DNA of 62,000 bases, taken from NCBI RefSeq assembly GCF_026151205.1, contig NC_087080.1, positions 16,095,337-16,157,336 of the forward strand, given 5' to 3'. The position numbers were made by a program, and so were the translations under genes. Shown piece by piece: positions 1-54,660 of the stretch. A model generated the notes under the pieces. That model did not search any database, was not told the DNA's origin, and saw only the letters and a list, made by a program, of their open reading frames with translations. Within the stretch, counting starts at the first letter, position 1; every line of letters starts with the position of its first letter. Source of the DNA: Bolinopsis microptera (lineage: Eukaryota > Ctenophora > Tentaculata > Lobata > Bolinopsidae).

Positions 1-9
1 AAGCATGGT

Positions 10-324
10 GCTTGTGCGAATGTAAGGTACTGGGATAGGATTCCTGGAAATACAGTGCAGGTTAGAAGCAAGCTTTGTGCGAATGTAAGGTACTGGGATA
101 GGATTCCTGGAAATACAGTGCAGGTTAGAAGCAAGCTTTGTGCGAATGTAAGGTACTGGGATAGGATTCCTGGAAATACAGTGCAGGTTAGAAGCAAGCT
201 TTGTGCGAATGTAAGGTACTGGGATAGGATTCCTGGAAATACAGTGCAGGTTAGAAGCAAGCTTTGTGCGAATGTAAGGTACTGGGATAGGATTCCTGGA
301 AATACGGTGCAGGTTAGAAGCAAG
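10..324. repeat. 63-bp minisatellite, five copies
   Basis: Five near-identical 63-bp units, each containing ggttagaagcaagctttgtg. The period is a multiple of three and the unit has no stop in one frame, so a 99-codon open frame results. It lies about 440 bp beyond the stop codon of the transporter gene. I see no other coding sign. Confidence 0.95.
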
Positions 325-832: not shown

Positions 833-3800
833 CTGTAACTTCACCCGTCAAAGTACTTAAGTTTCATCTACTTAGTAAGTTAGTAATACTAATATATCTC
901 GTCTATTACTTGATTACGTCTCTTACTTCTACAATTACATTCGCCATACCAAATAACGACAAAAAAGGCAAATTTTAAAATGAATTAATCAGTATTCCGG
1001 AGGAGTTTATAACACAACACGCTTAAAATAAACCCCCGTGCTACCCCCTCCCCCCCCCCCTTGTGCTACCCCTCCCCCCTCGTGCTACCCCCACCCCTTG
1101 TGCTACCCCCCCCCTCGTGCTACCCCCCCTTGTGCTACCCCTCCCCCTCGTGCTACCCCCCCCCCTTGTGCTACCCCCCCTTGTTCTACCCCTCCCCCCT
1201 TGTGCTACCCCCCCTCCCCCCGCCCCCTTGTGCTACCCCCCCCTTGTGCTACCCCTCCCCCCTCGTGCTACCCCCCCCCCCTTGTGCTACCCCTCCCCCC
1301 TCGTGCTACTCCCCCCCCCTTGTGCTACCCCCCCTTGTTCTACCCCTCCCCCCTCGTGCTACCCCCCCCCCCCCCCCCCTTGTGCTACCCCCCCCCCCCC
1401 CCCTCGTGCTACCTGAGGAAACTGCCCTCCCCCCTCGTGCTACCCCCCCCCCCCCTTGTGCTACCCCCCCCCCCCCCCCTCGTGCTACCCCCCCCCCCCC
1501 CCCCCCCCCCGTACTCTGGATTGTTACCTGAGGAAACTGCCCCAGCAAACGCTCCAACTGGGAATGAAGCACAGTATATCGAGGTAATGAGGTTCTGGGC
1601 TGACTGAGGCATCTTCCTGTACCGCACCTGCAATCAGAGTGGTTAGAAAAAGGGAAGTCTCTCGGGAAAACTGAAATCTATCAATGTGAATTGTGAAACG
1701 ATCATTACAGCAAGATTTCACTGTACCAAAGTAGGGGTCAGGGGACAAAGTTCCGGAAATTATGATATCATGACGAAAGTAGTACTAGGGGTCGTTCACA
1801 TATTATTACGTAATCAGCTGAGGGGGGGGGGGGTTTCCGAAAGATAACGCTAGTGTAATTTTTACACAACAGCTTTGTGTAAAACTGATTACGGAGGGGG
1901 GGGGGGGGGTAAAAGTGTTCCAAAAAATGATTACGTAATATTATGTGAACCCTACCACTGTGCAACTTTATTTTCATTTAGTATAATACTGTTGCAATGT
2001 GTTACTGGTGACTAGTAGTAATATAAATAGTAGTATTTGTGGTGTTTCGGAATTACCTTGTAAATGTCGTACATGATGATAAGGGAGGGGAAGCAAGCGA
2101 GACACATCTCCAACCCAATAAGTGCTAGAACAACTAGCAATTGTGTGATCGATGGCTGAACCAGTCCCTGTTGGTCACGGTTAATGTTATAACATTGTAA
2201 CAATATGTTCACCTTGGGCGTGCTAAGAATTTTGTTTGGTATAATTTTTAAAACATCATGTCCATTTAATTGTCCATGACTCGAAAATAACGTTCTGCAT
2301 CGAAATTGTAAATCGTTAAAATCTGCAACATACCAGAAAAAAGTGGGAAGGTCCAAGGAAGAGGTAGGTGACGGGCAGGGTGAAAGCAGATATAATGAAG
2401 AAGATATAAGGGCTGAACATGTCCATGAGTTGTCCCAGAAAGGGAGCCAGGATAATAATGCCAGCTGTGTTCACCAGCAGACAGATTCCCGCAAACACTG
2501 CTCCTTGCCCAAACTCAACCTGTCGTGTTTAATTTATTGGTACATGCACTTTCTATCTGTAATTATTAACAGTTCAGTGCAATCTAGCAATGAAGGTTCA
2601 TTTGATTGTCACTATATTTAACTTACATCATGTAATAATATATACATATTATTATTATGTTGTGTAAGTTAAATATAGTGGCTAGAGAGGTTTTATATAT
2701 ATATGATATAAAACCTAGGCCTATTAACATTAGGATTAATATGCTGACCGTGGTATAAGCCGCCAATATAGGGATGTAAAAGTTAAGAAGAGTTTGAGAG
2801 AAAGCACAATGCCACGCTGGAAAGATAATCAGGGGGTCTGTGAATACTCCCTGAGAAACACCATCTGAAATAGTAACCATGGTAACATGTTGTAAAAATA
2901 GAAATACCATCTATATCTGAAATAGTAACCATAGTAACATGTTGTCAAAATAGAAATACCATCTGAAATAGTAACCATGGTAACATGTTGTCAAAATAGA
3001 AATACCATCTATATCTGAAATAGTAACCATAGTAACATGTTGTCAAAATAGAAATACCATCTGAAATAGTAACCATAGTAACATGTTGTCAAAATAGAAA
3101 TACCATCTGAAATAGTAACCATGGTAACATGTTGTCAAAATAGAAATACCATCTGAAATAGTAACCATGGTAACATCTTGTCAAAATAGAAATACCATCT
3201 GAAATAGTAACCATGGTAACATCTTGTCAAAATAGAAATACCATCTGAAATAGTAACCATGGCAACATCTTGTCAAAATAGAAATACCATCTAAAGATTG
3301 TATCGTGATTATAATAACAATATTATTGTGTTTTAAATACTTTACGGTGACTGTTAGATAGATATAATTAATATTACATTACGTTTAAAGCCCAACTGTC
3401 GGACAACTATTTACCTGTATTTAGTTTATTTCTGATGAGTTAAAGTTTGTTACTAGCCGTAAAGATTTTAAGAGGCTTTCATCAGCCAAAATAAGAGACA
3501 ATCTTTTCAATAGTGATGATCCAGCGCCTATAACTAAGAAGTTTTGGTCACATGTTAAGTATAAATCTAACTCCTGCCGTATTCCTAATTGTGTTAGTTA
3601 TTCTGGACAGCTTCGGTTCAAACCCAAAGCTCAAGCTGAACTTTTCAATTCTTTCTTTTATAACCAGTTTTCGGATCCTTCACTTTATGACACTGACATC
3701 TCCTATGTCAATGATGTTGATTTTGATATTGACTTCGATCATCGGGATGTTCGTAAGCTTCTTTCAAATATTAATTCAAATAAAGCCCAGGGACCAGATG

Positions 3801-6800
3801 GCATACACGGTAAAATTCTCAAAAATTGTTCCGTAGGTTTAGCTTACCCTCTAACATGCATTTTTCGTGGATCTTACAACAGCGGCTACATTCCACAAGA
3901 ATGGAAACTTGCAAATGTTGTCCCAATATTTAAGAAAGGTAAGAAAAGTGAGGTTGAAAACTATAGACCAATATCCCTTACTTGTTTAGTCATGAAAGTT
4001 TTTGAGCGCATTGTTAAACGTAAACTGCTTTCTTTGACAAGTACCCTTCTTGATTCCAGGCAGCATGGTTTTCTAGAGCACAAGTCATGCACAACCAATA
4101 TGGTTGACTTTTGTGATAGCCTGGCATTGTCTCTTAACGAAAACATTATCAATCATGTTGTGTATTTTGATTTTGCTAAGGCATTTGATTCTGTAAATCA
4201 TGATATCCTTCTTCATAAGCTAAAGACCTTATATAACATTGATGGTACACTTCTCAAATTTCTTACCAATTACCTTCAAGGCCGTTACCAAAGAGTGGTT
4301 ATTGGTAATGAGATGTCATCTACCCTCTCAGTTAATTCTGGTGTCCCCCAGGGCTCTATTCTTGGTCCCTTACTTTTTGTATTGTTTATCAATGATATTC
4401 CTCTTGGCCTTTCGGTTAATACTGATATTGTTTTGTATGCCGATGATACAAAAATCTGGCGTAAAATACATTCATCTTCTGATAATACTAATTTACAAAT
4501 GGATATAGACTATCTCTCTGACTGGGCACTAAGAAACAAAATGCGATTCCATCCAGCAAAATGTAAAGTGCTTATTGTTTCAGGAAAACCATCTTTATCT
4601 CCTCCATTCGCATATAATCTTGATGGCTCTCCTCTTGTGTATGTAGAGTTAGAAAAAGATCTTGGAGTCGATGTTACTCCTAAGCTAAGTTGGAATAGTC
4701 AGTGCGACAGAATTTATACTAAGGCCTGCCAACAACTTGGTATGGTCAGAAGAGATGGCCATATTGTCATTGATCAGAAACGTCGCCGGGCGCTTTACCT
4801 CTCCCTGGTTCGTAGCCAATTCGAAAATTGTTCCATAATCTGGCACCCTTGTAATAAAGCACTTAGTGATAAATTAGAAAGTCTCCAAAAGAGAGCTATT
4901 AAATGGATTCTGTCTGAAGAGGGCCGCAGTTATCCACCTGAGCAATATGTCAAAAAGTGCAAGCTTGTCGACATTCTCCCTTTGTCTCAAAAGTTTGACT
5001 TGAATGATCTTATTTTTTTCCACAAAGTTCTTAACAATTTAATTCCTGTATCGCTGCCTCACTATCTCTCTTTATTATATCAGGGCACTTCTCGACTAAG
5101 ACGTTGCCACCTCGACAGTCTGTCTATTGTGTCATCAATTTTACCTAAGTTAAGTCAGAATTCACACACCACATGTACCTCAAATAGCCCACTGGCAAAA
5201 TCGTTTTTCTACAGAACCCATATACTGTGGAATGGACTCCCTTTACAGGTAAGACAGATTGTGTCTACTAGTCTTTTCAAAGCTGAGGTCACTAAGCATC
5301 TCTGGAAATGTTTATTGGATAGTGAAACAACAGTCTAGCCTAGCCTCTTTGCTCCCCATATTATTATTATTTTTGTTTTATTAATTTTTTTATCTACCTT
5401 CCTATACCTTCAACATCATATAACACTTCACCCGCTTCTCACACATTAATGACCATATCAGACCTGTATCTAATGTATCTGGAATTTGACGTATTGAAAT
5501 ACCAATTTTGACTCTATATCCACAGTTATTCACCATGGATTTGTTTGTTATTAAATAGTTTTTCATAAATTTTTGGATTTAGATTAATTCGATGTAATGG
5601 GTCCAAGTTACTGCGGACATAGTTCACTATGTGTTTACCGTGTTTGGGTGCCCATCATATTTTACAGATGGGGGCGATATTTTGAACGATTCTATTTTAT
5701 ATTCATATATTGCTGTACTCTGTAAAATTTGAAAAGTATTTAATAAAAAAGTTGTCACTAGTTTACCTGTATTTAGTTGTCACTAGTTTACCTGTATTTA
5801 GTTGTCACTAGTTTACCTGTATTTAGTTGTCACTAGTTTACCTGTATTTAGTTGTCACTAGTTTACCTGTATCCGATGTTCTGCAGTCTATATCTTTAAC
5901 GCAAACAATACTTGTTAGGAAGACCACGAATATGGCTGCTGCTGGAGCTACGAATGCTAGCAGAAAATTCACGTTCTGAAATATTTAATCGTTTCCAATT
6001 ATTATATCCAATCTTGACGAATATTTCTCAGTTCAAACGAAATATGTGTCGACATAAGTATCACCTTACCATGGTTTCATTTGCATACAATTATAGCTTA
6101 CCTCATAAAGCAGGGCCCCGATATAAGGACTAGTAGCTATAGCACAGTTGAGCGATGTTTCTACAACGGCTGTAGTAAGGGCTATATTGGACGGGAACAT
6201 TTTGGCTGTGACTGTGAACGCCACTACATCGACCACTCCACCTGTTATTCCCTAAAATAATACAGAAATTTATTTAAAGATGAATAACTTTACATATTAA
6301 AGATGGGGGCCATACATCAAAAAGTTCCAGCCCAAATGATCTCGTAGGAAGTTGAGTGACCATCTGGCGCACCGTTTTAACAACCAACAAATTTATTTTG
6401 AGAACACCTATTTCTGTAACCGAGCATTTCCTGGTTTGAATCCATTTTTCGAAAAGCAGTATTTGTTTTATTGAGAGGCTGTAACATTTAAGCTGAAATT
6501 TTGCACGAAGGTTGTCCACATCTTGTTCTACATGTGTTCCGCTAGAAACCGCCAATTTGAGATATTTTCTTGTGTTTGAAGTCATATCTCAAGTTTGGCA
6601 CATAGAAACTCGCCCAAAATCGCACAGAATGTCCGTGTAACAATCTGGAAAGTTTTAAGAAAATCTATCAGTCAGATCTTGAGAAAATCAAAAATATATT
6701 CTAAGTTATTCACTAAAACACTAAATTTTCGAACTTTTTATTTGGAACAGAATTGTCGAAAGTTCTTCTGGGGCAAAATACGCTCACTGCTTTGTGTTGT

Positions 6801-9800
6801 AAGGAGGGCTAGTTGAGCGCATTTTTGCCACACTTTTGCCACAAACTCAAGACGTCATAACTCGAAGATCTTTGCAGATATCATTCTGAAATTTTCACAG
6901 CAGTTTCTTCCCAAACAGTTATTTGTGACTACAAAATATGAGCTTGATGTGACCCGTAATACCATAGATACAATACCGAACACAAGGAAAAATTTCAAAA
7001 CATGTTAGGTCGACTTTTTCAAAAACTGTCCGAACGATTTTCTTTAAATTTTGTCAGTACCCTTAGCACAATAATAAGCGACTCAATTTGTGGCAAATTC
7101 TGATTTTATGTTTTTATTTGTGCTTTTGAGGCCCTAAGTCTTTTTGCTGCAACATGGAACTTTTTGAGACTCTCAACATATTTGCTGAGGTAATTAGACT
7201 ACTCCTTGAACTCCTAGTAGTCGGTATGAACGGTATGGTTTGAGTCGCGAGAAGTTAAAGTTGGTGTAAATCTGCGCCGAGGGAGTGTGGCAGATTTGCG
7301 CTCAACTATCTACGGTTGTAAGGCGCGGAGACATTTATAGATGGTAGTGAAGTTGTTTCAGCGCCCTAGCAGATTAAACAAATGCGCGCGCGTCAGAACC
7401 AAGCTAAAGAAAAACTTCAAATCCAGGACACAGTTATTAATTATAATTATAAATTATTATTATATACAGGGTGGGCCAAAAGTCAGTACCCACACGTTGG
7501 CCTTTATAGCTCAGTCACTGAGTGCCCAATTGAAATAATTCTTTCTGGTACAACTTAGTACCACCACCGATTCGAGGAATTTGTCAACTCGAAAAATATT
7601 CGTGTTCATTTTTTTTTCAAACGAAGATTTATTTGATAATTTGGATAGTCGGATCGAGCTAAATTTTATTGAATTGTATTTGGTCATTCGAATTACGTTT
7701 GTCCTGAAAAAAATTAGAGTTATAGTTGGAGGACTTCGACGCGCCTCGCGAACTAGCATTCTTGCTTCGCAGATCAACGATCTCGATGGGTTGACATCGT
7801 CAACCAAGAGTTATAGCTTCTCAGATGACCGAGATACGAAGCATAACGAGTTTATTCATTACATGTGATCAGGTGATTGGCTAACCTAATCACGTGATAA
7901 GGTGACCTTGACCATTGTTAATGATCTGTTGTAGGTTAACAACCTACTGCAGGACGCGCGCCGAGTTGGACTCGTCGACGGTCCTGGATATATGGAACAG
8001 ATATTTTACGAGTAACACCCGTTAAATGATCTGGCCCGACGCGCGCTACTTCGTAGCTCGTGCCATCGGGCCATAACATTTCGAGAAAAAAGTTAACGGG
8101 TGATACTTGTAAAATATCTGTTCCATATATTGACCGTCGGGCGTCGACGAGTCCAACTCGGCGCGCGTCTTGGTAGGTTGTAAACCTACAAGAAGAAAGC
8201 GGCGCGCGCTACTTCAAAAAATTAGACGAGTAACATCCGTCAAAGGTGACCCCGTTAATTGATTCACGATGTCAATCCTTTGCAGCTCGGTGAGGCACAG
8301 TGGTGCATCTCGCCGATCTACCGAAGTGGTTGCGAGAAGCATTATTGGATGCGCGCTCGCGACCCAGTAGTGCATCGCGCTACAACCCCGTTAACTACCC
8401 CGTTAAACATTATGGAAATCGTTAAGGCTGCCCAATTAAAGTGTTGTGTCACGGTGCGCGGTGTCACATAATCACCCAATTAATTTTAACGGGTGATACT
8501 CGTAAAATATTTGGTCCAAATATTCCAGGACCGTTGACGAGTCCAACTCACCGCGCGTCCTGGTAGGTTATAAACCTACAAAATCAATTTTGCTAACCAG
8601 ATACACAAATCGCTTGATAACTCCGTCATTTCTAATCCGTTTCATATCATTGTTCAAATCAAATGCAAATCCCAGGCTGACGGTCGGCCTCCACTTTCTA
8701 AAAATTACCTTTAGTGAAGGCCGATGGTCAACAAATAGCGATGTTAGAGCTTGATACGTGTGAACAAGTGCTGACCTCCTTTCACACTATTGGAGACGCG
8801 ACTCTGATCGCAAATGCGAAAGGAAAGATTCCGGGGAGGGCACCATTGGATTTTGTTGGTTGCATATTAAAAAAAAAGAAAAAAAGAGCAAATAAAACTG
8901 CAGTCATAGTTGTAAGTATAACATTGTAAAGAATAGTGCAAACCTGGCAGACCCTGAGGATCAAAGAAAGAGTGATGTAAAGTGTTTTGTGCTTGACATA
9001 ACCCAGAGTCGAGTAAGCAAAAGTAACTAAAGAAATTAGACCTGAAATAAAGAAGAGTTATCAAAAGTAACTAAAGTAACTACGCCTGAAATAAAGAAGA
9101 GTTATCAAAAGTAACTAAAGAAATTAGACCTGAAATAGTACGGTATATTTATAAGTCAGTTAGTTTGTTTAGCCATTAGCATTAATCATAATGGCTTTGT
9201 ATCAGAACGTAAAAGTTTAGTTCGTAAACTTGAAAGTCAAAGTTAGATATTGCTGCCTTGAGCAAACGTTTTCAAATCTTTTTTGGCAAGTATTTTAATA
9301 TTTGTGGAAAATTTTGAGTCAATTTAAATATGTACCATGGCACATGTGTTATGACATGAAATTCTTTATGTTAGCATAGTACGATTTACAATTTTATTTT
9401 AATTTATTTCTCGGTTCGTTATTACTTAATATATTCATTTAATAAGCCTGATGGTTATCAGAGAGCATTAATATAATATACTATCAAACTAGAATATGTA
9501 GCGTGTGATTAGTGAAAATAACACGAGTGCAGTTGTAATTGTATTACATATTAGAGATAGTATTAGTGTATTAGTATATTGGGCTCTATTCTTGACACCA
9601 TTAAATGTCATTAGACAGTATTAAAATCAATAATTTATCTGTTGACATAAATTGTCATAAATATGAGTTTAATGACTGGCAGGCTATGTCGGACAGTTTG
9701 CTAATATTCTGCCAGGACCACCTGTTAATGTGACCATTTAAGGTCACTTATAACATGTTGATTTATTAGTTCAATATAAACACTTATAGTTTGTCTACGA

Positions 9801-12800
9801 CTACAGTCGAACGGTTCAGTATTCGAGATGTACGAATTTATTTGGGAACTCTCTACTTTGACATTAGTAATTGTCCATTCTACGCACAGAATGAACATTA
9901 TTTTAATTTTGAAGCAGCAATTTTTCTTTAGTAACCCTGTTAGTACAGGGTGGGCCAAAAGTCAGTACCCATACGTTGGCCTTAATAGCTCCGCCGTGTT
10001 TTATATTTGAGAGCTGTTGCTTTGCAGATGGCATACTGTACTTACTGGTTCGAGGATTCCGTCGTCAAAATTTGAAAATTCGAATATTTTAGACCACGCC
10101 CATTCAATATTAAAACACCTATATTGTTTTCTCTGAACATGCTGAACGCCTAATTTTTTCAGAGACGGTAGATTATTAAATGTTGCATATGATCCGAAAA
10201 TATGAGGCAAAACGGATTAGAAATGACGAAGTTATCAAGCATTTTCTGTATCTCGTTATCAATTTTGACTGGGTGATTATGTGACACCGTGACACGACAC
10301 CTTAATTGGGCACCCTTAACAATTCCCATAATGTTTAACGGGGTAGTTAACGGGGGCACCTTATCACGTGATTAGGTAAACCAATCACCTGATCACACGT
10401 AATGAATAAACTCGTTATGCTTCATATCTCGGTCATATGAGAAGCTACAGTTCTAATTCTTTCAGGACAAACGTAATTCGAATGGCCAAACACAATTCAA
10501 TAATATTTAGCTTGATCCGACTATCCAAACTATCAAATAAATGTGAAAATGAACCTCCATTTGAAAAAAATGAACGCGAATATTTTTCGAGTTGACAAAT
10601 TCCTCGAACCAGTGGTGGTACTAAGTCATACCAGAAAGAAGTATTTAAATTGGGCACTCAGTGACTGAGCTATAAAGGCCAACGTATGGGTACTGACTTT
10701 TGGCCCACCCTGTATTATTTGTCACACTGCACTAACTTAAACTCAATTAAGCGTATCTTATAAGTTATAAATCAGTCATAATCTACGGAGTATAGTAGGG
10801 GGTTTAATTATCATTTCGCCCGTAGCCTAACATCCTCAGCTCTCAAGTTTGCTTTCAGTATTCAAAAATAGAAGCAATTGGGGGTGCACGATATTTGGTG
10901 CACGATATTTGGTGCACGATATTTGGTGCACGATATTTGGTGCACGATATTTGGTGCACGATAATTGGTGCACGATATTTGGTGCACGATATTTGGTGCA
11001 CGATAATTGGTGCACGATAATTGGTGCACGATATTTGGTGCACGATATTTGGTGCACGATAATTGGTGCACGATATTTGGTGCACGATTGGCGAGTAATT
11101 AATTTAACTAATTCATCTTTGACCACGATTATAAATAATTTGCCAAAAAACTTTTCAAAATTAGAGATTTGGTTATGACATATGAAAAAATGACTGTCCA
11201 CGGCTTCAATGCCCGCCTTTTCATCTTGAAACGATCACATGCAAGTACTTAGAGTACAAACAAAATCTGTCGGTACAAATAAAATTGGTGACTTGTTGGT
11301 CTTAAATACGGGATGATATGACTTTTACTTAGTGTAACTGTAAAGGCAAATTGAAATAAATCCATCATTATTACTTAGCTTATTTTAGTTTGATTTTTGA
11401 CATTCTTGATCTTCATGGGAGATCGTCAGATCGCCGTATTTTATAACAACGCACCGAATTTTAATTTCGCTTTGGGATAAAAACACAAGTTCTTGTTATA
11501 ATAAGTTCAACTAACCTGTACTGAGAAGTAGAAGATTTTTACTTGAATATCTGTCCAGACATTTGGCCACCAGAGGACAGATGAAAATGTAGCAAAACGG
11601 CACTGCCCCCAATATTATACCTGGGATGATAATAATAATACTAATATCAGATGATTTGTTTATTGACATTGTTTCATAGTTTGCAGTTTGTTTAAATGTT
11701 GTTACTTTCTCAAGCGTCTAACAGTAACAGTGTCACTGTCAGTAGCACTGTTACTACTACTAGGTAATAGGATTTCCACGCCGTAAATTTGAACTCAACA
11801 TGCAACCTGACTTATGCCAGCGTGGCGAGTGTGCTTACTTGGGGGGGGGGGGGGGGGGGGGCCCTTACTTGTTACTTTGCAATTGGCGTTTGGAGAGTGA
11901 GCTAGTTTCTTTTTCGAAAACTTAACTGAGGTACTAGTAAAACTGCGCGTTTTGCTCTAGAAACACACTTTTTAGAGATTTTACTGGATGATGATTAATC
12001 ACTCTACACTCGATTGTCACGTGACTTTTTCAACCCGTTCTCTAGCTGGTCCTGAATGACTATTCGAAACCTTAATCCTTTAATCTGATCCCAACCCTAA
12101 CCCTAACCCAATCCTTAAGTGCTTAACAAAAGCATATGCTGAAACCCTAACGATAAATTAGATTAACTTCCTTATATGGTCATATCACGTGATCGAGACA
12201 GTTTTTCGCCAATATCTCGTCAGGGGAGCATGTCATGGGGGGTGATTCGGAATCAGCGTCCGTAAATACATCGATTGAAGTTGGTTTCAATTGTCGGGGG
12301 CCCTTTTAGAACAATCTCGAAGATCGACTGTAGAGTGATCTAGCAATTTAATTTGTCCAATATTAGGGAAGGGCGCCAATAGGAGGGGCGATTTTTCAGC
12401 GGAGGGGGGGGGGGGGGGGGCAATAGGCAACATTACGCCATTGACAAGAATACAAGGATTCAAAGATGATAATTAAATTTTGGTAATCCTGAGATACACA
12501 TCATGAGCAAGTTTATTCAAAAAGGATCAACAACAATGTTTAAATTGAGATAAGTAAGAATCCTAATTTTAATAAGTCTTGCCTCTACTCTCTACAGACA
12601 ACAGAGCTGACTATCTTATTGTTCCTAATACGATGAAACTTGTCAGGCTCTGTAGTCCGTTTCAGTCTCAGTTCTTCTACAAGCTTTTTGTAAGCTTTGC
12701 GATCCGCGACAGTTCTATTAGGGCAGATGTAAACTGAGCTGTTCCCCTCTTTTGAGCGTAGTGTACTGGTGATTCTGATCACCTGAGTTGCAGGGACGTA

Positions 12801-15800
12801 GCCAGGATTTTTCTTTGAGGGGGGCTGTCGGCGAGCGAAGCGAGCCGACGCGTCCAATGAAGCTGCGCAGCGAGCGAAGCGAGCAAGCTGTGGCAGGGGT
12901 CTGGGGGCGCAGCCCCCAGCGGGGTCCAGGGGCGGAGCCCCTTAGCGGGGTCCAGGGGCGGAGCCCCTTGGCGGGGGCTAGGGGGGCGCAGCCCCACGGA
13001 AATTTTTTGCGAAACAGGGTGTTTTAGACGACATTTGGCATTAAAGAAATTTGTAGGACAGCAATAAACTGGGATTGAAAAGAATCAAGTACTCACGTAA
13101 ATTTGGTAACTTCACAACAGCAATCTGCATTCTCCAATCAAAATTTACAACTTACTCAGGCCTCATCGTCTTAAGATTTTTACATTTCCTACGGTCTAGG
13201 GGACACTATTGACTATAATTATAGATGTCTTCTAGAATGTTTGCTTGGATTTAATGGCATATATTTACTAATCCACAGATCAAATCTTTGACTGACTGCA
13301 GTCATAAACACAGCCCAGTTACCAGGCGACCATGGGGACTAGGGGGCTTATCTTTTTTCTGGGGTTCGATTTTTTCCGGGGGGCTGCCGCCCCCCTAGCC
13401 CCCCCCCCTGGCTACGTGCCTGCTGAGTTGCATGGTCAGAGCTGCTCAATGGGAACTTGACCGGTCTGGACACATTTTCTTGCGGAGCTTCAATACGAAA
13501 GCAGTCCCTGACTAACTTTCTTAACTGCAGCGTGGATCTTCTTCGGGGCGCAAGCAGCATTGATACTCTTGCTAACGACTGAAGGGTAGCTTTTCATCTC
13601 CATTTGTACGGTATTCTGCCATGATTTCGTCCCCTTTTCTATTATTTTACTCTGAGTCTGAAGGTTGATGATAGTACTCTGATTTGAAATCTTCTCATTT
13701 TGCAGCTTTTCAACTAATTCAACAGTGTCACCTCGCTAAGTCAGGGGATACTGAACTGATCCAATATACAACAGACAGTTTCCAACCATTCGCATAATTT
13801 CCCTTTCGTTACTGATCTCTTGTTCATCAAATTGCAAGATTGAATCTCCTCGTAATTTGTCCTGTTGATTTCAAATCCCGGAGAGAACACTATCCCTGGC
13901 ATCTGCTACAACCTATTAAAGATTTGACTTCTAACCTCGTGCAAATTCTGGCCACATGATGTATACTTATAGCAAGCACACAAAGACACAGGCTAGCTTA
14001 TCGTTAGTTACAAAAAGATAAGAGAGTTCGATAATTGCAACGTAAGCTGACTACAGTAAACCTCAGACGTTTCCAGTATCTTTATAAATCGGTACTCTGG
14101 GAGTGGCCGTAAAATTTTAGAAATATATTCGTAACATTCATTCCATTTCCTTTAAATTGAAATACGAAAATGGAGTGACATGGCGTAATTCTGCGCAAAA
14201 AGATCCAGGCGAGGAAATTAAACATGATTAAGGACGAAGTTGGTATAAATTGTTCATATCACAATTCACAGTTCCTTATAGTTATTGAGTGCGCCCACAA
14301 ACAGTGACTTGTGACTGTCATTTAATTTTAGTGATTTTCCAAGTTTTGTACTTAAAAACGCGTTATATGTCTAAAATGACGCACGTATTTACCTGTTGTA
14401 CTGATGGGGATGTTTCTTTCTAGATTGTATAGAGGTAGGAAGGAGCCTGGGAGACTGAAGAGTCCGTACGACACAAACAGCGACAGGTTCATCATAACAA
14501 ATGTAGAAATCCTGCAATTTGTGTGCATTATACTCGAGTAGTCCCACTCTATAACGCAATTTAGCGTTAAATAACCACGTTGTTTAGACTTAATTAGACC
14601 CAAGTAATCGATTATGAGATGGAGTCTTTGTATTTTGTTTTATCCATCAGTAGAATTTAATTGGCTTGAAAATGGAATAAATCTATGGTAGATAGAGTTC
14701 GTATGAAAACTCTGCACATTAACCTGCATAATTTATATTGAGAGACAATTATATAATTTACATACTTTATTTTTTGATTTTTTCACACTTCATATTTCAT
14801 AATTTTATTAATATTACTATAGGTAAGGCGTGCACGATAAAAATAAACTTGCTCGGATTTTAAAAATTTTTGTGCCACTGTTTTCTAGAGACTGTGAGAA
14901 TTTTGACAATACAAAATTTGTCATACCTTTTTGGAAAGATCAGTGAGTTTCGCCTAGGTGCCATATTTGATGGTGCGCGGCTTTTGGAGCAAAAGTCGCT
15001 GTAAAATTCGCGTAATTTGACCAAATTCGTCCAAATTTGACCATTTTTGTCGTATTATTCGGATATATCTTCAGTTCCTTAAATGAGATCATTCTGGAAA
15101 TTGGCGTCGACCTTTTAATAGGGCCAGGGCTTTCACAACTGTCCGAAAAATTTGGTGGATATCGCAGTTGATATACTTATAGTCATTAAAATGGGGCAAA
15201 ATACGCTGCTTTTAGCTGTAACATAATGTCTGATGGTTGGATATGCTTTAAATTTTTCGAACACTTTCTCACTTTCCTTGTAAGTCTATGAGTAAGCTTA
15301 CCAATTTTTGTTGCAATTGGAGGCCAGGAAGGATACTCAATATTTTTAATTGACGATGTCAATTCATGGCAGCTCGGCGCGGCACAGTAGCGCATCTCGC
15401 CGATCTAGCCAGGAAGCCTTATTAAGTGCGCGGCGCGGCACAGTAACGCATCGCGCTACAATCAATATTTATTTGTTTGAAGAAAATTGTGCTGGCCGAA
15501 ATTAGCGCTAAAAAACCATACTCAATACTACAGTCGGCATGCGCGGCTCACTGTCGATGGCGCACTACCTACTATAGGTGGATGTGATGTTACTGAGATT
15601 TACTCGTGTTTTGAAAGTTTTCCTCTGTACTTTTTTCATTGGCCCACGCTTTTTAGCATTTGCTGTACATTTTTATGATTGCTATTTTGTAAATTTTCAA
15701 CAAATCATAATAGACTAGAAAACAGGAAGGAAGCTAATCACAGTGCTGGCAAGCACGAACGCACTTATTCATTATACTATTATACCCCTTTAATGTTTTT

Positions 15801-16772
15801 CCAGGCATGAAGACTCATTGAAAGTCGTTCAGCAGGCACATTTTAAGTTCAAAACATTACAATTTAATGTCAAATATGACAGGAATAAGGAATAGTTATG
15901 TGGAGGTTTTTAAAAAACCCCAAAATCGCCATATTCAGGTGCCTTAAATACCATGTTAAAATTGAGTTAGAGATCTGAAACTTCGCAGGTCGTCTATACA
16001 TTGACCAAATCGACTACACAAAAAGTTTCAAGTTTTAGGAGTATCAGGAAGTGGGTTTTCTGGAACCCCTGTTTTACAACAGATTGTCGTGAAGTACCTT
16101 AAACGATAATCTCAGAATGTGTGTGCGTGTCTGTTTGTCTGTCTATGCGCGTGTAATTTCCGAGCGGCTTAATCAAGAAAACGGTAAGAGTTATGGAACT
16201 GGTTTTTCCGGTATAACGCCGAGAAAACTCTGACAAAGCCAAATGATAAAGGTTTTTTAAATCGGTCGGTGGTAAGTGGTTTAATTGATGGTTTTGTACC
16301 ACAAATGTGACAGAAAATGGATCACTTTTTCTCCCTCCTCGCTCTCTCTCCCAGTACTGCATAGGCAGCGTTGGTACATAAATCTTGATTAGATTAGCCT
16401 CGATATTCACTGTCATGTAATACTATAAGCTTATTAGGAGAGGGAGCACTCATTGCGGTCTGTTTGGACTGTAGAGAGAGTTCATACTTTCATACGACAA
16501 TGTTATGCGTGTTTTCAAATATAATATTAATAGGCAAGTTTCTACTCTTGAATTTCAACTGCGATAGTGAAGTCCCATCTCCCAGTCGTAGGCACGGATT
16601 ACACTAGTGTATTATATGTACACTTATACACAATGTGTGTATTACACACGCGTAAGTAAACTAACTTCCATCTGAGGGGTAATATTCCAGAGTTCCCTGC
16701 AGACGAGGAAGAGGACGATAAGGACTCTGTGTCTTCAGCTCTGCCATTGTCTATCCGATCATATCCTGACAT
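765..16772 (-). CDS. MFS transporter, SLC18B1-like, complete 11-exon gene
   Basis: Coding exons, in transcript order: 16772-16666, 14511-14393, 11620-11516, 9041-8944, 6251-6102, 5975-5867, 2864-2749, 2519-2334, 2167-2057, 1627-1528, 832-765. They sum to 1269 nt, giving 422 aa plus stop. Every junction is GT-AG and every phase joins. The predicted protein has a short acidic, Ser-rich cytosolic N-terminus and then about 12 hydrophobic segments. An MFS loop 2-3 motif (KCLDRYSSK) follows TM2, and FLGQLMD follows TM8 in the second half. The section LRVCQ-GITGGVVD through VVETSLN to YIGALLYE matches the TM4-TM5 region of SLC18B1-type vesicular amine/polyamine transporters. Family members work as proton-coupled antiporters in vesicle or plasma membranes. 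The substrate here is not inferable. Usual length is about 450 aa. MFS assignment is firm, the SLC18B1 subfamily is probable, and the first and last exons are least certain. Confidence 0.85.
1033..1510. repeat. C-rich degenerate array, unit about tcgtgctaccccc
   Basis: About 30 irregular units of (t/c)(c/t)(g)tgctac followed by 4 to 20 C, ending in a long C tract. On the minus strand each unit reads GGGGTAGCACGAGG, so it carries a GGTAGC donor-like core. One unit (1411-1428) contains a copy of the neighbouring exon end and donor. The proline-rich frames arise from C runs and are not coding. Confidence 0.9.
1528..1627 (-). CDS. Transporter exon 10 (TM11)
   Basis: Acceptor GATTGCAG, donor CCTCAG|GTAACA. 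It encodes VRYRKMPQSAQNLITSIYCA then SFPVGAFAGAVSS. S/G-rich TM11 with P-x-G-A-x-x-G is typical of this family. The last 16 exon bases and the donor are copied about 115 bp away inside the C-rich array (around 1411-1428). Confidence 0.85.
1788..1952. mobile_element. 165-bp MITE with TA target duplication
   Basis: Ends ggggtcgttcacatattatt and its approximate inverse (ataatattatgtgaaccc) are flanked by TA on both sides. The shared core is attacgtaat. It contains two G-runs and no coding sequence, and lies in transporter intron 9. Confidence 0.8.
2057..2167 (-). CDS. Transporter exon 9 (TM10)
   Basis: Acceptor CCAACAG, donor TACAAG|GTAATT, 37 codons in phase zero. It encodes GLVQPSITQLLVVLALIGLE then MCLACFPSLIIMYDIYK, one helix and a short loop. 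Confidence 0.88.
2334..2519 (-). CDS. Transporter exon 8 (TM8-TM9)
   Basis: Acceptor CACGACAG, donor TTCTG|GTATGT, 62 codons. It encodes two hydrophobic helices separated by APFLGQLMDMFSP, the second-half counterpart of the MFS motif A loop. Confidence 0.9.
2749..2864 (-). CDS. Transporter exon 7 (TM7)
   Basis: Acceptor TATTTCAG before 2864, donor CCACG|GTCAGC. It encodes DGVSQGVFTDPLIIFPAWHC then AFSQTLLNFYIPILAAYTT, the end of the central loop and TM7. The acceptor plus about 11 exon bases are repeated about nine times upstream in the transcript (2861-3295). Confidence 0.85.
2861..3295. repeat. 46-bp minisatellite spanning a splice acceptor
   Basis: Nine units start with ccatct at 2861, 2907, 2959, 3005, 3057, 3103, 3149, 3195 and 3241, with a partial at 3287. 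The period is 46 bp, or 52 bp where a ctatat insert occurs. On the gene strand every unit reads ACTATTTCAG|ATGG, the authentic exon 7 acceptor plus the start of the exon. The array therefore repeats a 3' splice site about nine times. Confidence 0.95.
3425..5338 (+). CDS. LINE reverse transcriptase ORF, N-terminally truncated
   Basis: An open frame of 637 codons with no stop or frameshift from the truncation point to TAG at 5336. The first Met is codon 190, so this is a fragment rather than a natural start. RT signatures in order are GPDGI near residue 125, NYRPISL, motif A YFDFAKAFDSVNH (about 247-259), motif B SGVPQGSILGPLLF (about 304-318) and the catalytic YADD (338-341). A C-terminal region (IWHPCNKAL, KSFFYRTHILWNGLP) is typical of CR1/jockey-like elements, which lack RNase H. 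No endonuclease remains. The clean frame suggests a young insertion. The clade is my inference from motif style. Confidence 0.9.
   Translation, partial: FISDELKFVTSRKDFKRLSSAKIRDNLFNSDDPAPITKKFWSHVKYKSNSCRIPNCVSYSGQLRFKPKAQAELFNSFFYNQFSDPSLYDTDISYVNDVDFDIDFDHRDVRKLLSNINSNKAQGPDGIHGKILKNCSVGLAYPLTCIFRGSYNSGYIPQEWKLANVVPIFKKGKKSEVENYRPISLTCLVMKVFERIVKRKLLSLTSTLLDSRQHGFLEHKSCTTNMVDFCDSLALSLNENIINHVVYFDFAKAFDSVNHDILLHKLKTLYNIDGTLLKFLTNYLQGRYQRVVIGNEMSSTLSVNSGVPQGSILGPLLFVLFINDIPLGLSVNTDIVLYADDTKIWRKIHSSSDNTNLQMDIDYLSDWALRNKMRFHPAKCKVLIVSGKPSLSPPFAYNLDGSPLVYVELEKDLGVDVTPKLSWNSQCDRIYTKACQQLGMVRRDGHIVIDQKRRRALYLSLVRSQFENCSIIWHPCNKALSDKLESLQKRAIKWILSEEGRSYPPEQYVKKCKLVDILPLSQKFDLNDLIFFHKVLNNLIPVSLPHYLSLLYQGTSRLRRCHLDSLSIVSSILPKLSQNSHTTCTSNSPLAKSFFYRTHILWNGLPLQVRQIVSTSLFKAEVTKHLWKCLLDSETTV
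3425..5755 (+). mobile_element. 5'-truncated non-LTR retrotransposon (LINE)
   Basis: The element starts directly after a ttacctgtatttag sequence and ends in an A-rich 3' region (aataaaaaa), followed by tttacctgtatttagtt again. This is consistent with a target-site duplication of about 17 bp, although the target already lay in a tandem repeat. It is antisense to the transporter in intron 6. The 5' part with endonuclease is missing, as expected of target-primed integration that stopped early. About 400 bp of 3' UTR follow the ORF. Confidence 0.85.
5755..5866. repeat. 25-bp minisatellite spanning a splice donor
   Basis: Five units of agtttacctgtatttagttg plus tcact. On the gene strand each reads ATACAG|GTAAACTAGTGAC, identical to the end of exon 6 with its donor. 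The nearest unit is the authentic site. A related copy lies beyond the LINE at about 3408-3424. Confidence 0.93.
5867..5975 (-). CDS. Transporter exon 6 (TM6)
   Basis: Acceptor TATTTCAG, donor ATACAG|GTAAAC. It encodes NVNFLLAFVAPAAAIFVVFL then a Cys-containing central loop (TSIVCVKDIDCRTSDT). The last six exon bases and the donor are repeated five times downstream (5755-5866). Confidence 0.88.
6102..6251 (-). CDS. Transporter exon 5 (TM4-TM5)
   Basis: Acceptor ATTTTAG, donor GAG|GTAAGC, 50 codons, phase zero at both ends. It encodes GITGGVVDVVAFTVTAKMFP then SNIALTTAVVETSLNCAIAT and SPYIGALLYE. The spacing of F-P, V-E-T, P-x-I-G and L-Y matches SLC18B1-like proteins and is the best family evidence in the gene. 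Confidence 0.92.
6252..7464. other. Transporter intron 5 sequence, no gene seen
   Basis: AT-rich intron sequence between exon 5 and the first mariner-type MITE. Open frames here (for example 6274-6585 minus) lack recognisable domains and splice context. Confidence 0.4.
7942..8570. repeat. Nested foldback arms (inverted repeat)
   Basis: The left arm 7942-8026 (acctactgcaggacgcgcgc...) is repeated inverted at 8092-8177 and again, diverged, at about 8487-8570. The arms are about 85 bp and GC-rich (gagttggactcgtcgacg) against an AT-rich background. This looks like a palindromic MITE with a duplicated right arm. Confidence 0.8.
8266..8392. repeat. Dispersed repeat shared with 15355-15465
   Basis: gatgtcaat, gcagctcgg, gcatctcgccgatct and gcatcgcgctacaa occur in the same order here and at 15355-15465. 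The spacing is similar and the divergence moderate, suggesting two copies of one element or element part. Confidence 0.65.
8944..9041 (-). CDS. Transporter exon 4 (TM3)
   Basis: Acceptor TTATTTCAG, donor GCCAG|GTTTGC. It encodes LISLVTFAYSTLGYVKHKTL then YITLSLILRVCQ, which joins exon 5 (GITGG) to give the conserved R-x3-G element of TM4. The acceptor and the first 24 exon bases lie in a 44-bp tandem repeat (see 9018-9140). Confidence 0.85.
9018..9140. repeat. 44-bp tandem repeat spanning a splice acceptor
   Basis: Nearly three units with splice points at 9041/9042, then 44 and 88 bp further. On the gene strand each contains TTATTTCAG|GTCTAATTTC or a close variant and about 24 coding bases of exon 4. 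The outermost copy reads CTATTTCAG. The unit holds a CAG|GT sequence. Confidence 0.93.
9141..9943. other. Transporter intron 3 sequence, no gene seen
   Basis: AT-rich, without exon-like segments or recognisable repeats on either strand. Confidence 0.4.
9946..10712. mobile_element. Mariner-type MITE, copy B, intact ends
   Basis: The 767-bp element starts cagggtgggccaaaagtcag and ends with the exact inverse, flanked by TA. The inverted similarity continues inward (tacccatacgttggcctt). There is no transposase frame, so it is non-autonomous. The terminal sequence and TA target are those of mariner-like elements. It lies in transporter intron 3. Confidence 0.88.
10883..11088. repeat. 14-bp array ggtgcacgatattt
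   Basis: About 14.7 units of ggtgcacgatattt with ata(a/t)tt variants. The unit has no stop on either strand in phased frames, so short spurious ORFs appear. It lies in transporter intron 3. Confidence 0.95.
11089..11515. other. Transporter intron 3 sequence, nothing recognised
   Basis: AT-rich sequence between the 14-bp array and exon 3, with no coding or repeat signal. Confidence 0.4.
11516..11620 (-). CDS. Transporter exon 3 (TM2 and MFS motif A)
   Basis: Acceptor TCCCAG, donor ACAG|GTTAGT. It encodes GIILGAVPFCYIFICPLVAK followed by CLDRYSSKNLLLLSTG. The D-R-x-x-S-K stretch after TM2 is the MFS loop 2-3 signature. Phase one at both ends. Confidence 0.9.
11841..11861. repeat. G homopolymer (21)
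   Basis: A run of 21 G flanked by gcttactt and cccttactt. Similar long G or C runs occur at 597-617, 12404-12420, 21445-21483 (39 G) and 21594-21617 (24 C). Several sit at likely element ends or between short direct repeats. Confidence 0.9.
11998..12339. mobile_element. Probable 342-bp MITE
   Basis: atcactctacactcga at the left and tcgactgtagagtgat at the right form a 16-bp inverted repeat with one mismatch. A single end of the same type (gattaatcactctacactcg) recurs at about 19883-19905. No coding sequence. It lies in transporter intron 2. Confidence 0.6.
12585..13750 (-). pseudogene. Degenerate LINE ORF1-like gene split by a hAT MITE
   Basis: Ignoring the insertion 12791-13422 and one copy of its 8-bp duplication, a minus-strand frame continues across the site (SSDHATQ joins VIRITSTLRS). 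The upstream part has a likely coiled coil (ELVEKLQNEKISNQSTIIN) and SYPSVVSKSINAA, then one frameshift. The downstream part has VYICPNRTVADRKAYKKLVE then ELRLKRTTEPDKFHRIRNNK and KIVSSVVCRE before a stop. This layout (coiled coil, RNA-binding fold, R/K-rich R-N-x-K-I-V tail) is that of ORF1 proteins linked to animal LINEs. The identification is an inference from pattern only. Confidence 0.6.
12791..13422. mobile_element. Non-autonomous hAT element with 8-bp TSD
   Basis: The 632-bp element is bounded by cagggacgtagccagg and its near-perfect inverse (cctggctacgtgcctg). It is flanked by the direct repeat ctgagttg on both sides (12783-12790, 13423-13430). An 8-bp duplication and CAG-type termini indicate the hAT superfamily. 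The interior has GC-rich tandem segments (gcgagcgaagcgagc; ggggcggagcccctt) and no transposase. Confidence 0.9.
13751..14392. other. Transporter intron 2, no further gene seen
   Basis: Sequence between the ORF1-like remnant and exon 2. It may include decayed LINE 5' sequence but I could not confirm a reading frame. Confidence 0.35.
14393..14511 (-). CDS. Transporter exon 2 (TM1)
   Basis: Acceptor ATTGCAG before 14511, donor ACAG|GTAAAT at 14393. It encodes one hydrophobic helix, MMNLSLFVSYGLFSLPGSFL, followed by PLYNLERNIPISTTG. This is the typical TM1 plus luminal loop of MFS transporters. It enters with two bases owed and leaves with one. Confidence 0.85.
14512..15354. other. Transporter intron 1, nothing recognised
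   Basis: AT-rich intron sequence with several repeats of a gaccaaattcgtccaaatt type near 15020. No exon-like segment. Confidence 0.4.
15355..15465. repeat. Dispersed repeat shared with 8266-8392
   Basis: Contains gcagctcggcgcggcacagt and gcatctcgccgatct in the same order as the copy at 8266. Unusually GC-rich for its surroundings. Confidence 0.65.
15740..16095. repeat. Dispersed repeat copy 1 (partner at 30340-30815)
   Basis: Shares gtgctggcaagca, cccctttaatgtttttc, gacaggaataagg, tagttatgtggaggttttta, aaccccaaaatcgccatatt and caggaagtgggttttctgga with 30340-30815 in the same order and strand. No ORF in common; probably a non-coding transposon body. Confidence 0.85.
16096..16659. other. Transporter intron 1, 5' part
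   Basis: A gtgtgtgcgtgtctgtttgt-type low-complexity patch lies near 16118-16143. I see no gene. The rest is unremarkable intron. Confidence 0.35.
16666..16772 (-). CDS. Transporter exon 1 (N-terminus)
   Basis: Starts at ATG 16772-16770 and encodes 35 codons beginning MSGYDRIDNGRAEDTESL, then a run of six Ser, ending PLRW plus two bases. The donor is AA|GTTAGT. The split codon is completed by the single G that opens exon 2, giving Lys. The acidic Ser-rich cytosolic leader fits MFS transporters. A 3' splice site (TTGCAG, ending at 16790) lies 17 nt upstream of the ATG. This implies either a 5' UTR intron or, more speculatively, a trans-splice acceptor. Confidence 0.65.
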
Positions 16773-16848: not shown

Positions 16849-19807
16849 CAGTACACTATCAGTACACTATCAGTACACTATCAGTACACTATCAGTACAC
16901 TATCAGTACACTATCAGTACACTATCAGTACACTATCAGTACACTATCAGTACACTATCAGTACACTATCAGTACACTATCAGTACACTATCAGTACACT
17001 ATCAGTACACTATCAGTACACTATCAGTACACCATCAGTACACTATCAGTACACTATCAGTACACCATCAGTACACTATCAGTACACTTTCAGTACACTA
17101 TCAGTACACTATCAGTACACCATCAGTACACTATCAGTACACTATCAGTACACCATCAGTACACCATCAGTACACTATCAGTACACCATCAGTACACTAT
17201 CAGTACACTATCAGTACACCATCAGTACACTATCAGTACACTATCAGTACACTATCAGTACACTATCAGTACACCATCAGTACACTATCAGTACACCATC
17301 AGTACACTATCAGTACACTATCAGTACACTATCAGTACACTATCAGTACACCATCAGTACACTATCAGTACACTATCAGTACACTATCAGTACACCATCA
17401 GTACACTATCAGTACACTATCAGTACACCATCAGTACACCATCAGTACACTATCAGTACACCATCAGTACACTATCAGTACACTATCAGTACACCATCAG
17501 TACACTATCAGTACACTATCAGTACACTATCAGTACACTATCAGTACACCATCAGTACACTATCAGTACACTATCAGTACACTATCAGTACACTATCAGT
17601 ACACCATCAGTACACTATCAGTACACCATCAGTACACCATCAGTACACCATCAGTACACCATCAGTACACTATCAGTACACCATCAGTACACTATCAGTA
17701 CACTATCAGTACACCATCAGTACACTATCAGTACACCATCAGTACACTATCAGTACACTATCAGTACACCATCAGTACACTATCAGTACACTATCAGTAC
17801 ACCATCAGTACACTATCAGTACACTATCAGTACACTATCAGTACACCATCAGTACACTATCAGTACACTATCAGTACACTATCAGTACACCATCAGTACA
17901 CCATCAGTACACTATCAGTACACCATCAGTACACTATCAGTACACTATCAGTACACCATCAGTACACTATCAGTACACTATCAGTACACTATCAGTACAC
18001 TATCAGTACACTATCAGTACACTATCAGTACACTATCAGTACACTATCAGTACACTATCAGTACACCATCAGTACACCATCAGTACACCATCAGTACACT
18101 ATCAGTACACTATCAGTACACCATCAGTACACTATCAGTACACTATCAGTACACTATCAGTACACTATCAGTACACTATCAGTACACTATCAGTACACTA
18201 TCAGTACACTATCAGTACACTATCAGTACACTATCAGTACACTATCAGTACACTATCAGTACACTATCAGTACACTATCAGTACACTATCAGTACACTAT
18301 CAGTACACCATCAGTACACTATCAGTACACTATCAGTACACTATCAGTACACTATCAGTACACCATCAGTACACTATCAGTACACTATCAGTACACCATC
18401 AGTACACTATCAGTACACTTTCAGTACACTATCAGTACACTATCAGTACACCATCAGTACACTATCAGTACACTATCAGTACACCATCAGTACACCATCA
18501 GTACACTATCAGTACACCATCAGTACACTATCAGTACACTATCAGTACACCATCAGTACACTATCAGTACACTATCAGTACACTATCAGTACACTATCAG
18601 TACACTATCAGTACACTATCAGTACACTATCAGTACACTATCAGTACACTATCAGTACACCATCAGTACACCATCAGTACACCATCAGTACACTATCAGT
18701 ACACTATCAGTACACCATCAGTACACTATCAGTACACCATCAGTACACTATCAGTACACTTTCAGTACACTATCAGTACACTATCAGTACACCATCAGTA
18801 CACTATCAGTACACTATCAGTACACCATCAGTACACCATCAGTACACTATCAGTACACCATCAGTACACTATCAGTACACTATCAGTACACCATCAGTAC
18901 ACTATCAGTACACTATCAGTACACTATCAGTACACTATCAGTACACTATCAGTACACTATCAGTACACTATCAGTACACTATCAGTACACTATCAGTACA
19001 CTATCAGTACACTATCAGTACACTATCAGTACACTATCAGTACACTATCAGTACACTATCAGTACACTATCAGTACACTATCAGTACATTATCAGTACAC
19101 TATCAGTACACTATCAGTACACTATCAGTACACTATCAGTACACTATCAGTACACTATCAGTACACTATCAGTACACTATCAGTACACTATCAGTACACT
19201 AACAGTACACTATCAGTACACTATCAGTACACTAACAGTACACTATCAGTACACTATCAGTACACTATCAGTACACTATCAGTACACTATCAGTACACTA
19301 TCAGTACACTATCAGTACACTATCAGTACACTTTCAGTACACTATCAGTACACCATCAGTACACCATCAGTACACCATCAGTACACTATCAGTACACTAT
19401 CAGTACACCATCAGTACACTATCAGTACACCATCAGTACACTATCAGTACACTTTCAGTACACTATCAGTACACTATCAGTACACTATCAGTACACTATC
19501 AGTACACTATCAGTACACTATCAGTACACTATCAGTACACTATCAGTACACTATCAGTACACTATCAGTACACTATCAGTACACTATCAGTACACTTTCA
19601 GTACACTATCAGTACACTATCAGTACACTATCAGTACACTATCAGTACACTATCAGTACACTATCAGTACACTATCAGTACACTATCAGTACACTATCAG
19701 TACACTATCAGTACACTATCAGTACACTATCAGTACACTATCAGTACACTATCAGTACACTATCAGTACACTATCAGTACACTATCAGTACACTATCAGT
19801 ACACTAT
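16849..19807. repeat. 11-bp satellite cagtacactat, about 269 units
   Basis: A perfectly phased array of cagtacactat with caccat, cacttt and rare cattat or actaac variants. The variants form blocks: the cacttt-marked block at 17088 recurs at 18419 and 18760, spacings of 1331 and 341 bp, both exact multiples of 11. The unit has no stop codon on the plus strand in any phase, so an 800-codon frame is unavoidable until an actaac variant introduces TAA at 19200. It begins about 60 bp beyond the acceptor preceding transporter exon 1. Confidence 0.98.
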
Positions 19808-45782: not shown

Positions 45783-46195
45783 TCTAGCTTTGCGAATAGC
45801 ATGCGACAGATAATGATATTAATGAAAACTGAAGACACGGAGACATGGTGATGAAGACGATTTACACATGTATTTTTAAAGCTCTGTGTGTCACAACTAA
45901 TCACACACTATCTAATCAAACTTTTAGTATCACTATGTTTAAAATAATCCCCCTCCAGATATTAATGAAATCTCTATCCTAACATTGTACCAATAGAATT
46001 ATGCTTAAGTATTAAACTAAAACAGTGTGTCACAGTTAAATCAAACACAGCAGTGTAAAAAATAGTAAAAATAGAGAAATTTATCCTTGTCAAAGTTTAT
46101 TTGATAACTATAAAGATACATGAATAAAACAAGCAACACAGTACACTAGTGCAAATACATTATTTTATTGTCATTTCATTGTCAGGCAACACAAA
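45783..46195. other. Unique spacer between two satellites
   Basis: AT-rich, no gene recognised. Contains a stray gacacggagacatggtgatg fragment of the 45-bp unit near 45834 and cagtgtgtcaca/gctctgtgtgtcacaa similarities. Confidence 0.5.
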
Positions 46196-50875: not shown

Positions 50876-50944
50876 CTAAAATATGCAGCTTACTTTTTAT
50901 GTACAAGACTTATATTCTTGTAGCATTATTTCATTACCACACAT

Positions 50945-53900: not shown

Positions 53901-54660
53901 CACTTATTATACTGGTAACAGATACAATACTGGTAACACTCATCAAAATTGTTAACACATATCATACTGGTAACACATATCATACTGGTAACACTTATCA
54001 TACTGGTAACACTTATCATACTGGTAACAGATACAATACTGGTAACACTCATCAAAATTGTTAACACATATCATACTGGTAACACATATCATACTGGTAA
54101 CACATATCATACTGGTAACACATATCATACTGGTAACACATATCATACTGGTAACAGATACAATACTGGTAACACATATCATACTGGTAACACATATCAT
54201 ACTGGTAACAAATATCATACAGGTAACACATATCATACTGGTAACACTTATCATACTGGTAACACATATCATACTGGTAACACATATCATACTGGTAACA
54301 CATATCATTCTGGTAACACATATCATACTGGTAACAATTATCATACTGGTAACACATATCATACTGGTAACACATATCATACTGGTAACAGATACAATAC
54401 TGGTAACACATATCATACTGGTAACAATTATCATACTGGTAACACATATTATACTGGTAACACATATCATACTGGTAACACATATCATACTGGTAACACA
54501 TATTATACTGGTAACACATATCATACTGGTAACACATATCATACTGGTAACACATATCATACTGGTAACACATATCATACTTGTAACACATATCATACTG
54601 GTAACACATATCATACTGTTAACACATATCATACTGGTAACACATATCATACTGGTAACA
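50945..54660. repeat. 18-bp satellite, block A, about 206 units
   Basis: Unit catactggtaacacatat with tt, aat and ag variants. 18 is a multiple of three and the unit is free of stops in several frames on both strands, giving long frames of YHTGNT, ILVTHI, ICVTSM or CYQYDM repeats that are not genes. Larger blocks repeat, for example the agatacaatactggtaacac + tcatcaaaattgtt segment at about 53775, 53918 and 54028. The core catactggtaa-cacat is shared with the adjacent 35-bp unit. Confidence 0.98.

Follow-up and report, generated by a model that had tools for sequence, protein, structure and literature searches.

Minisatellites spanning or adjoining exon–intron borders at five junctions of an SLC18B1-like transporter gene in the ctenophore Bolinopsis microptera

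Tandem repeats at human exon–intron boundaries, described in segmental duplications, can alter splicing or make introns; in the cases reported there the repeats have units of 30 bp on average, repeated 4 times, they vary between primate paralogs and have RNA support, and some amount to new introns (De Grassi and Ciccarelli 2009, PMC2812944). The potato RdRp gene provides a related example, as described in its report, in which a duplication across an intron–exon boundary produced a new intron (PMC4974935). In Drosophila, near intron pairs and intron sliding have been described for introns separated by less than a limit of 32 nucleotides (nt), as set out in that account (PMC2891723). Here we examine a 62,000-nucleotide stretch of the B. 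microptera genome (contig NC_087080.1, positions 16,095,337 to 16,157,336; G000:C9:16095337-16157336; hereafter the window), in which a transporter gene carries copies of its own splice junctions, each with 6–35 exon bases, in the adjacent intron at 5 of 20 modelled junctions. The case belongs to the known kind of border tandem repeats and resembles the human examples in having border minisatellites with similar unit sizes that change gene structure. Unlike those described in PMC2812944, the arrays lie mostly at old introns, occupy five junctions of a single ctenophore gene and are known from sequence alone. Among the literature matches listed, none dealt with junction-spanning minisatellites in ctenophores.

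The transporter gene lies on the minus strand of the window, where 11 exons were placed. Its nearest protein is Mnemiopsis leidyi ACHWQZ_G017075, which is 81% identical and covers the entire query. The predicted product has a Pfam MFS_1 match (4.4e-23), and its sole Protein Data Bank match at E ≤ 0.01 is entry 9d7u, an SLC18B1 fusion (E 2.8e-8, residues 50–410); by sequence similarity over the MFS core it is an SLC18B1-like MFS protein. Every exon given below rests on the gene model together with alignment to the Mnemiopsis protein P0001 (81% identity), and that alignment contains zero indels at all ten splice joins. Positions here and throughout are those of the window unless a contig is named.
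16666..16772, minus strand, exon 1, with the start ATG at 16772
14393..14511, minus strand, exon 2
11516..11620, minus strand, exon 3
8944..9041, minus strand, exon 4, acceptor border 9041/9042
6102..6251, minus strand, exon 5
5867..5975, minus strand, exon 6, donor border 5867/5866
2749..2864, minus strand, exon 7, acceptor border 2864/2865
2334..2519, minus strand, exon 8
2057..2167, minus strand, exon 9
1528..1627, minus strand, exon 10, donor border 1528/1527
1..43, minus strand, exon 11, first 43 bases only

Using Tandem Repeats Finder (TRF) on the window and a direct scan for splice sites, we located five arrays, which fall at both ends of introns 6 and 10 and at the exon 4 acceptor in intron 3.
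9011..9137, minus strand, 44-bp array at the exon 4 acceptor: 2.9 copies by TRF, 24 exon bases, decoy acceptors at 9085 and 9129
5750..5872, minus strand, 25-bp array at the exon 6 donor: 4.9 copies by TRF, 100% identical, unit GTAAACTAGTGACAACTAAATACAG, 6 exon bases (ATACAG)
2854..3292, minus strand, 46-bp array at the exon 7 acceptor: 9.3 copies by TRF, about 11 exon bases per unit with one mismatch, 8 decoy acceptors (2916–3244)
1033..1510, minus strand, C-rich array in intron 10 (G-rich on the transcript), found by TRF: separated from the exon 10 donor by 17 bp of intron
12..324, minus strand, 63-bp array at the exon 11 acceptor: 5 copies by TRF, 99%, 32–35 exon bases, decoy acceptors at 106, 169, 232 and 295

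At four of these junctions the repeated copies include both the junction and exon bases. The 25-bp array supplies decoy donors at 5841, 5816, 5791 and 5766, and one more at 3414, beyond a retroelement described below; the 63-bp unit contains a branch-like CTAAC in addition to the acceptor and exon bases. Exon 10 differs, because the C-rich unit does not contain the junction; the end of the exon and its donor (GGCAGTTTCCTCAG/GTA, the slash marking the border) recur only once, embedded in the array at about 1410–1427. An earlier note on this DNA had placed the junctions of exons 4, 6, 7 and 10 in or next to tandem repeats; TRF and the site scan bear out all four, and the count was slightly understated, as the fifth array, at the exon 11 acceptor, had been missed. 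Its further statement that the unit itself contains the junction and exon bases holds for exons 4, 6 and 7 and fails for exon 10. Likewise, the motif CAG/GT, which it had assigned to three of four units, is present at exon 4 (two of three copies), at exon 6 and at exon 10, where it belongs to the embedded copy and not to a unit; it is absent at exons 7 and 11.

Exon 11 is cut short by a run of N, which may be a gap, bordering the window at its low end. The sequence beyond this run (positions 7501–10000 of L005, within L005 6000-10000) has many long homopolymers and looks poorly assembled. The last bases of exon 11 before the N run differ by one base from the exon's own array copies, which would read F-A-Q-S, where Mnemiopsis has F-A-N-S; the mismatch is probably an edge error. 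The contact of the 63-bp array with the N run, the homopolymer-rich sequence beyond that run and this mismatch could be taken to mean that the arrays were produced by assembly. The other arrays lie well inside the window, two of them show internal variation (87% and 92% matches) and a retroelement interrupts one, and we therefore regard an assembly artefact as extremely improbable.

The units appear to have been seeded locally. Across the genome searched (264,652,675 bases in 232 contigs), a 23-base exact pattern from the 25-bp unit gave four matches, all at the transporter locus, and the 46-, 63- and 44-bp units found no locus beyond their own arrays, in a search whose counts are lower bounds and which skips very common words. 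Because no second locus was reported for any of the four regular units, we rejected the idea of a dispersed satellite inserted at junctions. The units also differ from one another in length and sequence, in agreement with the proposal of the earlier note that the arrays record independent local events. Furthermore, the copied exon bases at exons 4, 10 and 11 encode residues conserved with Mnemiopsis, so the direction of copying runs from the exon edge into the intron.

One array also retains a trace of relative age, through the element that interrupts it.
3425..5749 (ends approximate), plus strand, retroelement of the long interspersed nuclear element (LINE) type, with a stop-to-stop RVT_1 frame at 3425–5338 (Pfam PF00078)
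The LINE sits between the 25-bp array and an outlying unit at about 3411–3430, and given this unit on its far side, the array was probably there before the LINE. We also considered whether the array was seeded by a target-site duplication made by the LINE, but the flanks look more like those of an element that inserted between two units of the array.

We favour the view, to which we assign a probability of roughly 0.7, that these are ordinary minisatellites seeded by chance across existing borders, that they are neutral and lie mostly at old introns, and that this gene is an extreme draw. A short tandem duplication would arise locally, by chance, across an existing exon–intron border and would then grow into the intron by slippage or unequal exchange. 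It would survive because the exon-adjacent copy retains the reading frame and a usable site, and the intronic copies would be decoys that are mostly ignored or nearly harmless. Because the genome is rich in tandem repeats, border duplications occur at a few percent of junctions, and the arrays are most likely neutral by-products of that richness.

An alternative is that the rows of decoys are functional, either tuning splicing, for example through competition or nonsense-mediated decay, or, in the case of the 63-bp row, adding in-frame repeats of 21 residues. On a rough splice-site matrix, to which all of the following scores refer, the majority of decoys in the regular arrays have scores similar to that of the real site. 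In the 44-bp array they score 8.6 and 3.7 against 8.6 for the real site; in the 25-bp array 3.8, with 5.4 for the outlier, against 3.8; in the 46-bp array every site scores 3.0; and in the 63-bp array three decoys score 4.7 and one 3.4, against 4.7. The exon 10 copy scores 0.9 and the real donor 3.5. The 63-bp unit is, moreover, a multiple of 3 and open (GILSQYLTFAQSLLLTCTVFP). The 44-, 25- and 46-bp units, in contrast, shift the reading frame, and the predicted Mnemiopsis ortholog contains no inserted repeat, which leaves a functional role for the decoys very unlikely.

The age of the introns bears on a further claim of the earlier note, namely that the gene may display early stages of intron gain through tandem duplication of AG/GT segments. 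In favour of it, CAG/GT copies occur at three of the five junctions, the mechanism is a published one (PMC4974935, PMC2891723), and none of the paralogs seen has an intron exactly where intron 6 lies. An intron born in this way should be absent from relatives and flanked by duplicated segments. We compared the gene with a paralog of about 50% identity on the same contig (L068, C9:11714500-11724499), modelled from its second exon on, with AG preceding each of the ten exons and GT following all but the last. The two proteins align without gaps over the shared core, and 9 of 10 intron positions are common to both genes, with phase computed from both for eight of them and intron 1 compared through the acceptor side of L068 only. 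These nine include introns 3 and 10, in which three of the five arrays lie. The shared introns are therefore older than the split between the paralogs, and the arrays did not create them; they lengthen introns that already existed, which largely refutes the proposal for introns 3 and 10. The Mnemiopsis ortholog protein is also colinear, and the two arrays that flank intron 6 have units unrelated in sequence. The proposal of nascent introns is thus not supported, and we give it very little credence, marginally less than a functional role for the decoys. Similarly, whereas the potato duplication as described copied an acceptor together with the start of an exon, as the 63-, 46- and 44-bp units do, the intron there was made and used; in the transporter no new intron is evident.

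Intron 6 is the only displaced intron of the ten. It lies at column 229 in phase 1 here, and the L068 intron lies 16 nt away, at column 234 in phase 2; exons 6 and 7 together measure 225 nt in both genes (109 + 116 in the transporter, 125 + 100 in L068). No intron is present at this stretch in the paralogs on C10, C4, C6 and C9:3976k. With a separation below 32 nt and total exon length conserved, the two introns make a near intron pair, although two separate gains would look identical. The shift thus falls inside the limit described for the Drosophila pairs; unlike those, as they are reported, it concerns paralogs and not orthologs, its distance is not a multiple of three and it is a single case (PMC2891723). 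Besides being displaced, intron 6 has an array at each end, as only one other intron does. This raises the boldest reading of the data, that junction-spanning arrays let introns move, in that a duplicated splice site with its exon edge would allow the border to jump. We consider this unlikely. Because two of ten introns are flanked by arrays, the chance of the coincidence is about 0.2, and it is a lead and not a result.

How far the number of arrays at junctions exceeds chance depends on the null model. Within the transporter, we re-placed at random the eight arrays of the gene span with a period of at least 10 and a score of at least 50. The mean number touching a junction was 0.32–0.53 by strict overlap and 0.52–0.73 within 20 bp, against 4 and 5 observed, with P ranging from 0 of 20,000 to 0.00125. 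A position test, which asks whether a 20-mer across a junction is matched at 18 or more of its 20 bases somewhere within 700 bp, flagged 5 of 20 junctions. Among the gene's own intron positions the rate was 10.8%, or 13.2% when 15 bp of slack was allowed; against the 10.8% rate the binomial P is 0.057. Since the gene was chosen for its arrays, both tests must be taken as post hoc.

For comparison we used exons from three protein families, taking as edges the ends of hidden Markov model or tblastn hits to myosin heads, MFS paralogs and kinesins; these are not annotated junctions, and some hits contain stops and are imperfect exons. The MFS sample comprised 12 of 38 matches, after exclusion of 10 hits to the window gene, 8 long single-frame paralog hits and 8 without a locus, and the L068 hits among the twelve were replaced by its ten modelled exons. 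Among the kinesins, 43 of 109 matches entered the test; all 73 listed myosin matches were used where DNA had been fetched, and kinase matches were left out. Edges within 200 bp of the end of a fetched sequence were dropped from the position test, while array re-placement kept all 228.

By position, a local copy was found at 5 of 146 edges in the myosin and MFS set, compared with 11.1% of 14,433 intron and flank positions, and at 5 of 80 edges in the kinesin set, compared with 8.7% of 4,898 positions, giving 10 of 226 edges in the pooled other genes. Sorting these ten by eye left five clear cases, in which at least 6 exon bases are copied with the junction, one doubtful case and four that do not qualify.
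C10:4044964, clear donor, 38-bp unit repeated 16 times, 26 exon bases
C5:9864626, clear donor, 12 exon bases
C7:4102749, clear donor, 8 exon bases
C6:3708622, clear donor, 18 exon bases, copy 149 bp away
C12:14835345, clear acceptor, 57 exon bases with 2 mismatches, copy 158 bp away
C12:14835015, doubtful edge
C9:11716967 (at a stop codon), C3:9157378 and C3:11064166, not qualifying
C12:14833825, not qualifying, the array repeating the donor but not six exon bases

The earlier note had suggested that duplication across borders is either unusually frequent here or uniquely tolerated. Unusual frequency is not supported by these position rates, whereas tolerance is consistent with the data, in that the exon-adjacent copy encodes conserved protein. 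Since an array cannot extend into an exon, position counts understate the edges, and we therefore re-placed whole arrays as a second null (97 arrays in 148,806 bp). By strict overlap, 9 arrays touched an edge in the other genes against 6.6 expected (P = 0.22). The two nulls disagree, the first giving fewer copies at edges than in introns and the second anything from no excess to a modest one; in the other genes strict overlap gives no clear excess, and the close vicinity of edges a modest one. Overlap of repeats with junctions in the sampled genes, which the earlier note had offered as a check, is thus not unusually frequent, with the possible exception of that modest excess at 10–20 bp slack.

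Several of these numbers weigh against chance seeding alone. With 10 bp slack, 16 edge-touching arrays were seen in the other genes against 8.6 expected (P = 0.012), and with 20 bp slack 17 against 10.7 (P = 0.028), a 1.6–1.9-fold excess that suggests something beyond chance may act. The transporter itself, with 5 of 20 junctions, exceeds both the clear cases (5 of 226; Fisher P = 0.0004) and the edges with any copy (10 of 226; P = 0.0038), both comparisons being post hoc, and its five junctions make up two full introns (6 and 10) plus one further junction, an arrangement with P = 0.046 under random choice. Exon–intron borders could be true birth hotspots for minisatellites, for example through microhomology of splice signals or clustered transcription-linked breaks. 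The concentration in the transporter, the excess with slack and a kinesin gene on C12 in which four edges were flagged point in this direction. Against it stand the strict overlap, the position test and the derivation of the edges from hits of three protein families. We consider hotspots unlikely, if somewhat less so than border movement through arrays; the transporter is an outlier that was chosen after the fact.

Three of the comparison loci show features of their own. The kinesin gene (L082, C12:14833000-14837000) contains the four flagged edges, among them the acceptor whose intronic copy includes 57 exon bases, and such events may therefore cluster by gene. In an MFS paralog (L027, C6:3706867-3710115), the donor with its 18 exon bases is copied downstream and the next exon is apparently present twice. 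In a second paralog of the transporter (L033, C10:4044381-4044990), the donor and 26 exon bases recur in about 16 copies, and most units have acceptor-like and donor-like ends (TTCTTAG/GTGAGT). A new intron produced by AG/GT duplication in this C10 paralog was considered and rejected, since the C4, C6 and C9:3976k paralogs have an exon break at the same place and the intron is therefore not new to C10. A family-wide cause was likewise set aside, as L068 has only one flagged edge of 20, at its stop codon.

Other repeats lie in the window around the gene. An array of an 11-bp unit (CAGTACACTAT) extends over 3 kb at 16849–19807 (TRF); it starts 76 bp before the start codon and lies in either the 5′ flank or the 5′ untranslated region. 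Copies of CAGGGTGGGCCAAAAGTCAGTACCCA lie near 7466 and 9945, with an inverted one near 10700 (10676–10715); by eye they resemble the ends of a dispersed element in introns 3 and 4. A second retroelement frame, on the minus strand at 24623–26305, carries RVT_1 and DUF6451, and positions 39986–55787 hold about 15 kb of near-continuous satellite arrays with 45-, 35- and 18-bp units in succession (TRF).

Intron birth is not supported at this locus, and movement of an existing intron is worth testing. The arrays form a ready-made series of in-place splice-site duplications, with units of 44, 25, 46 and 63 bp in the transporter and 38 bp in its paralog, which is useful for asking how the spliceosome chooses among many near-equal sites. 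The clear cases in other genes suggest that border duplication is common enough to be a realistic source of border shifts. If movement of introns through junction-spanning arrays is general in such a repeat-rich genome, it would offer a concrete mechanism for intron sliding.

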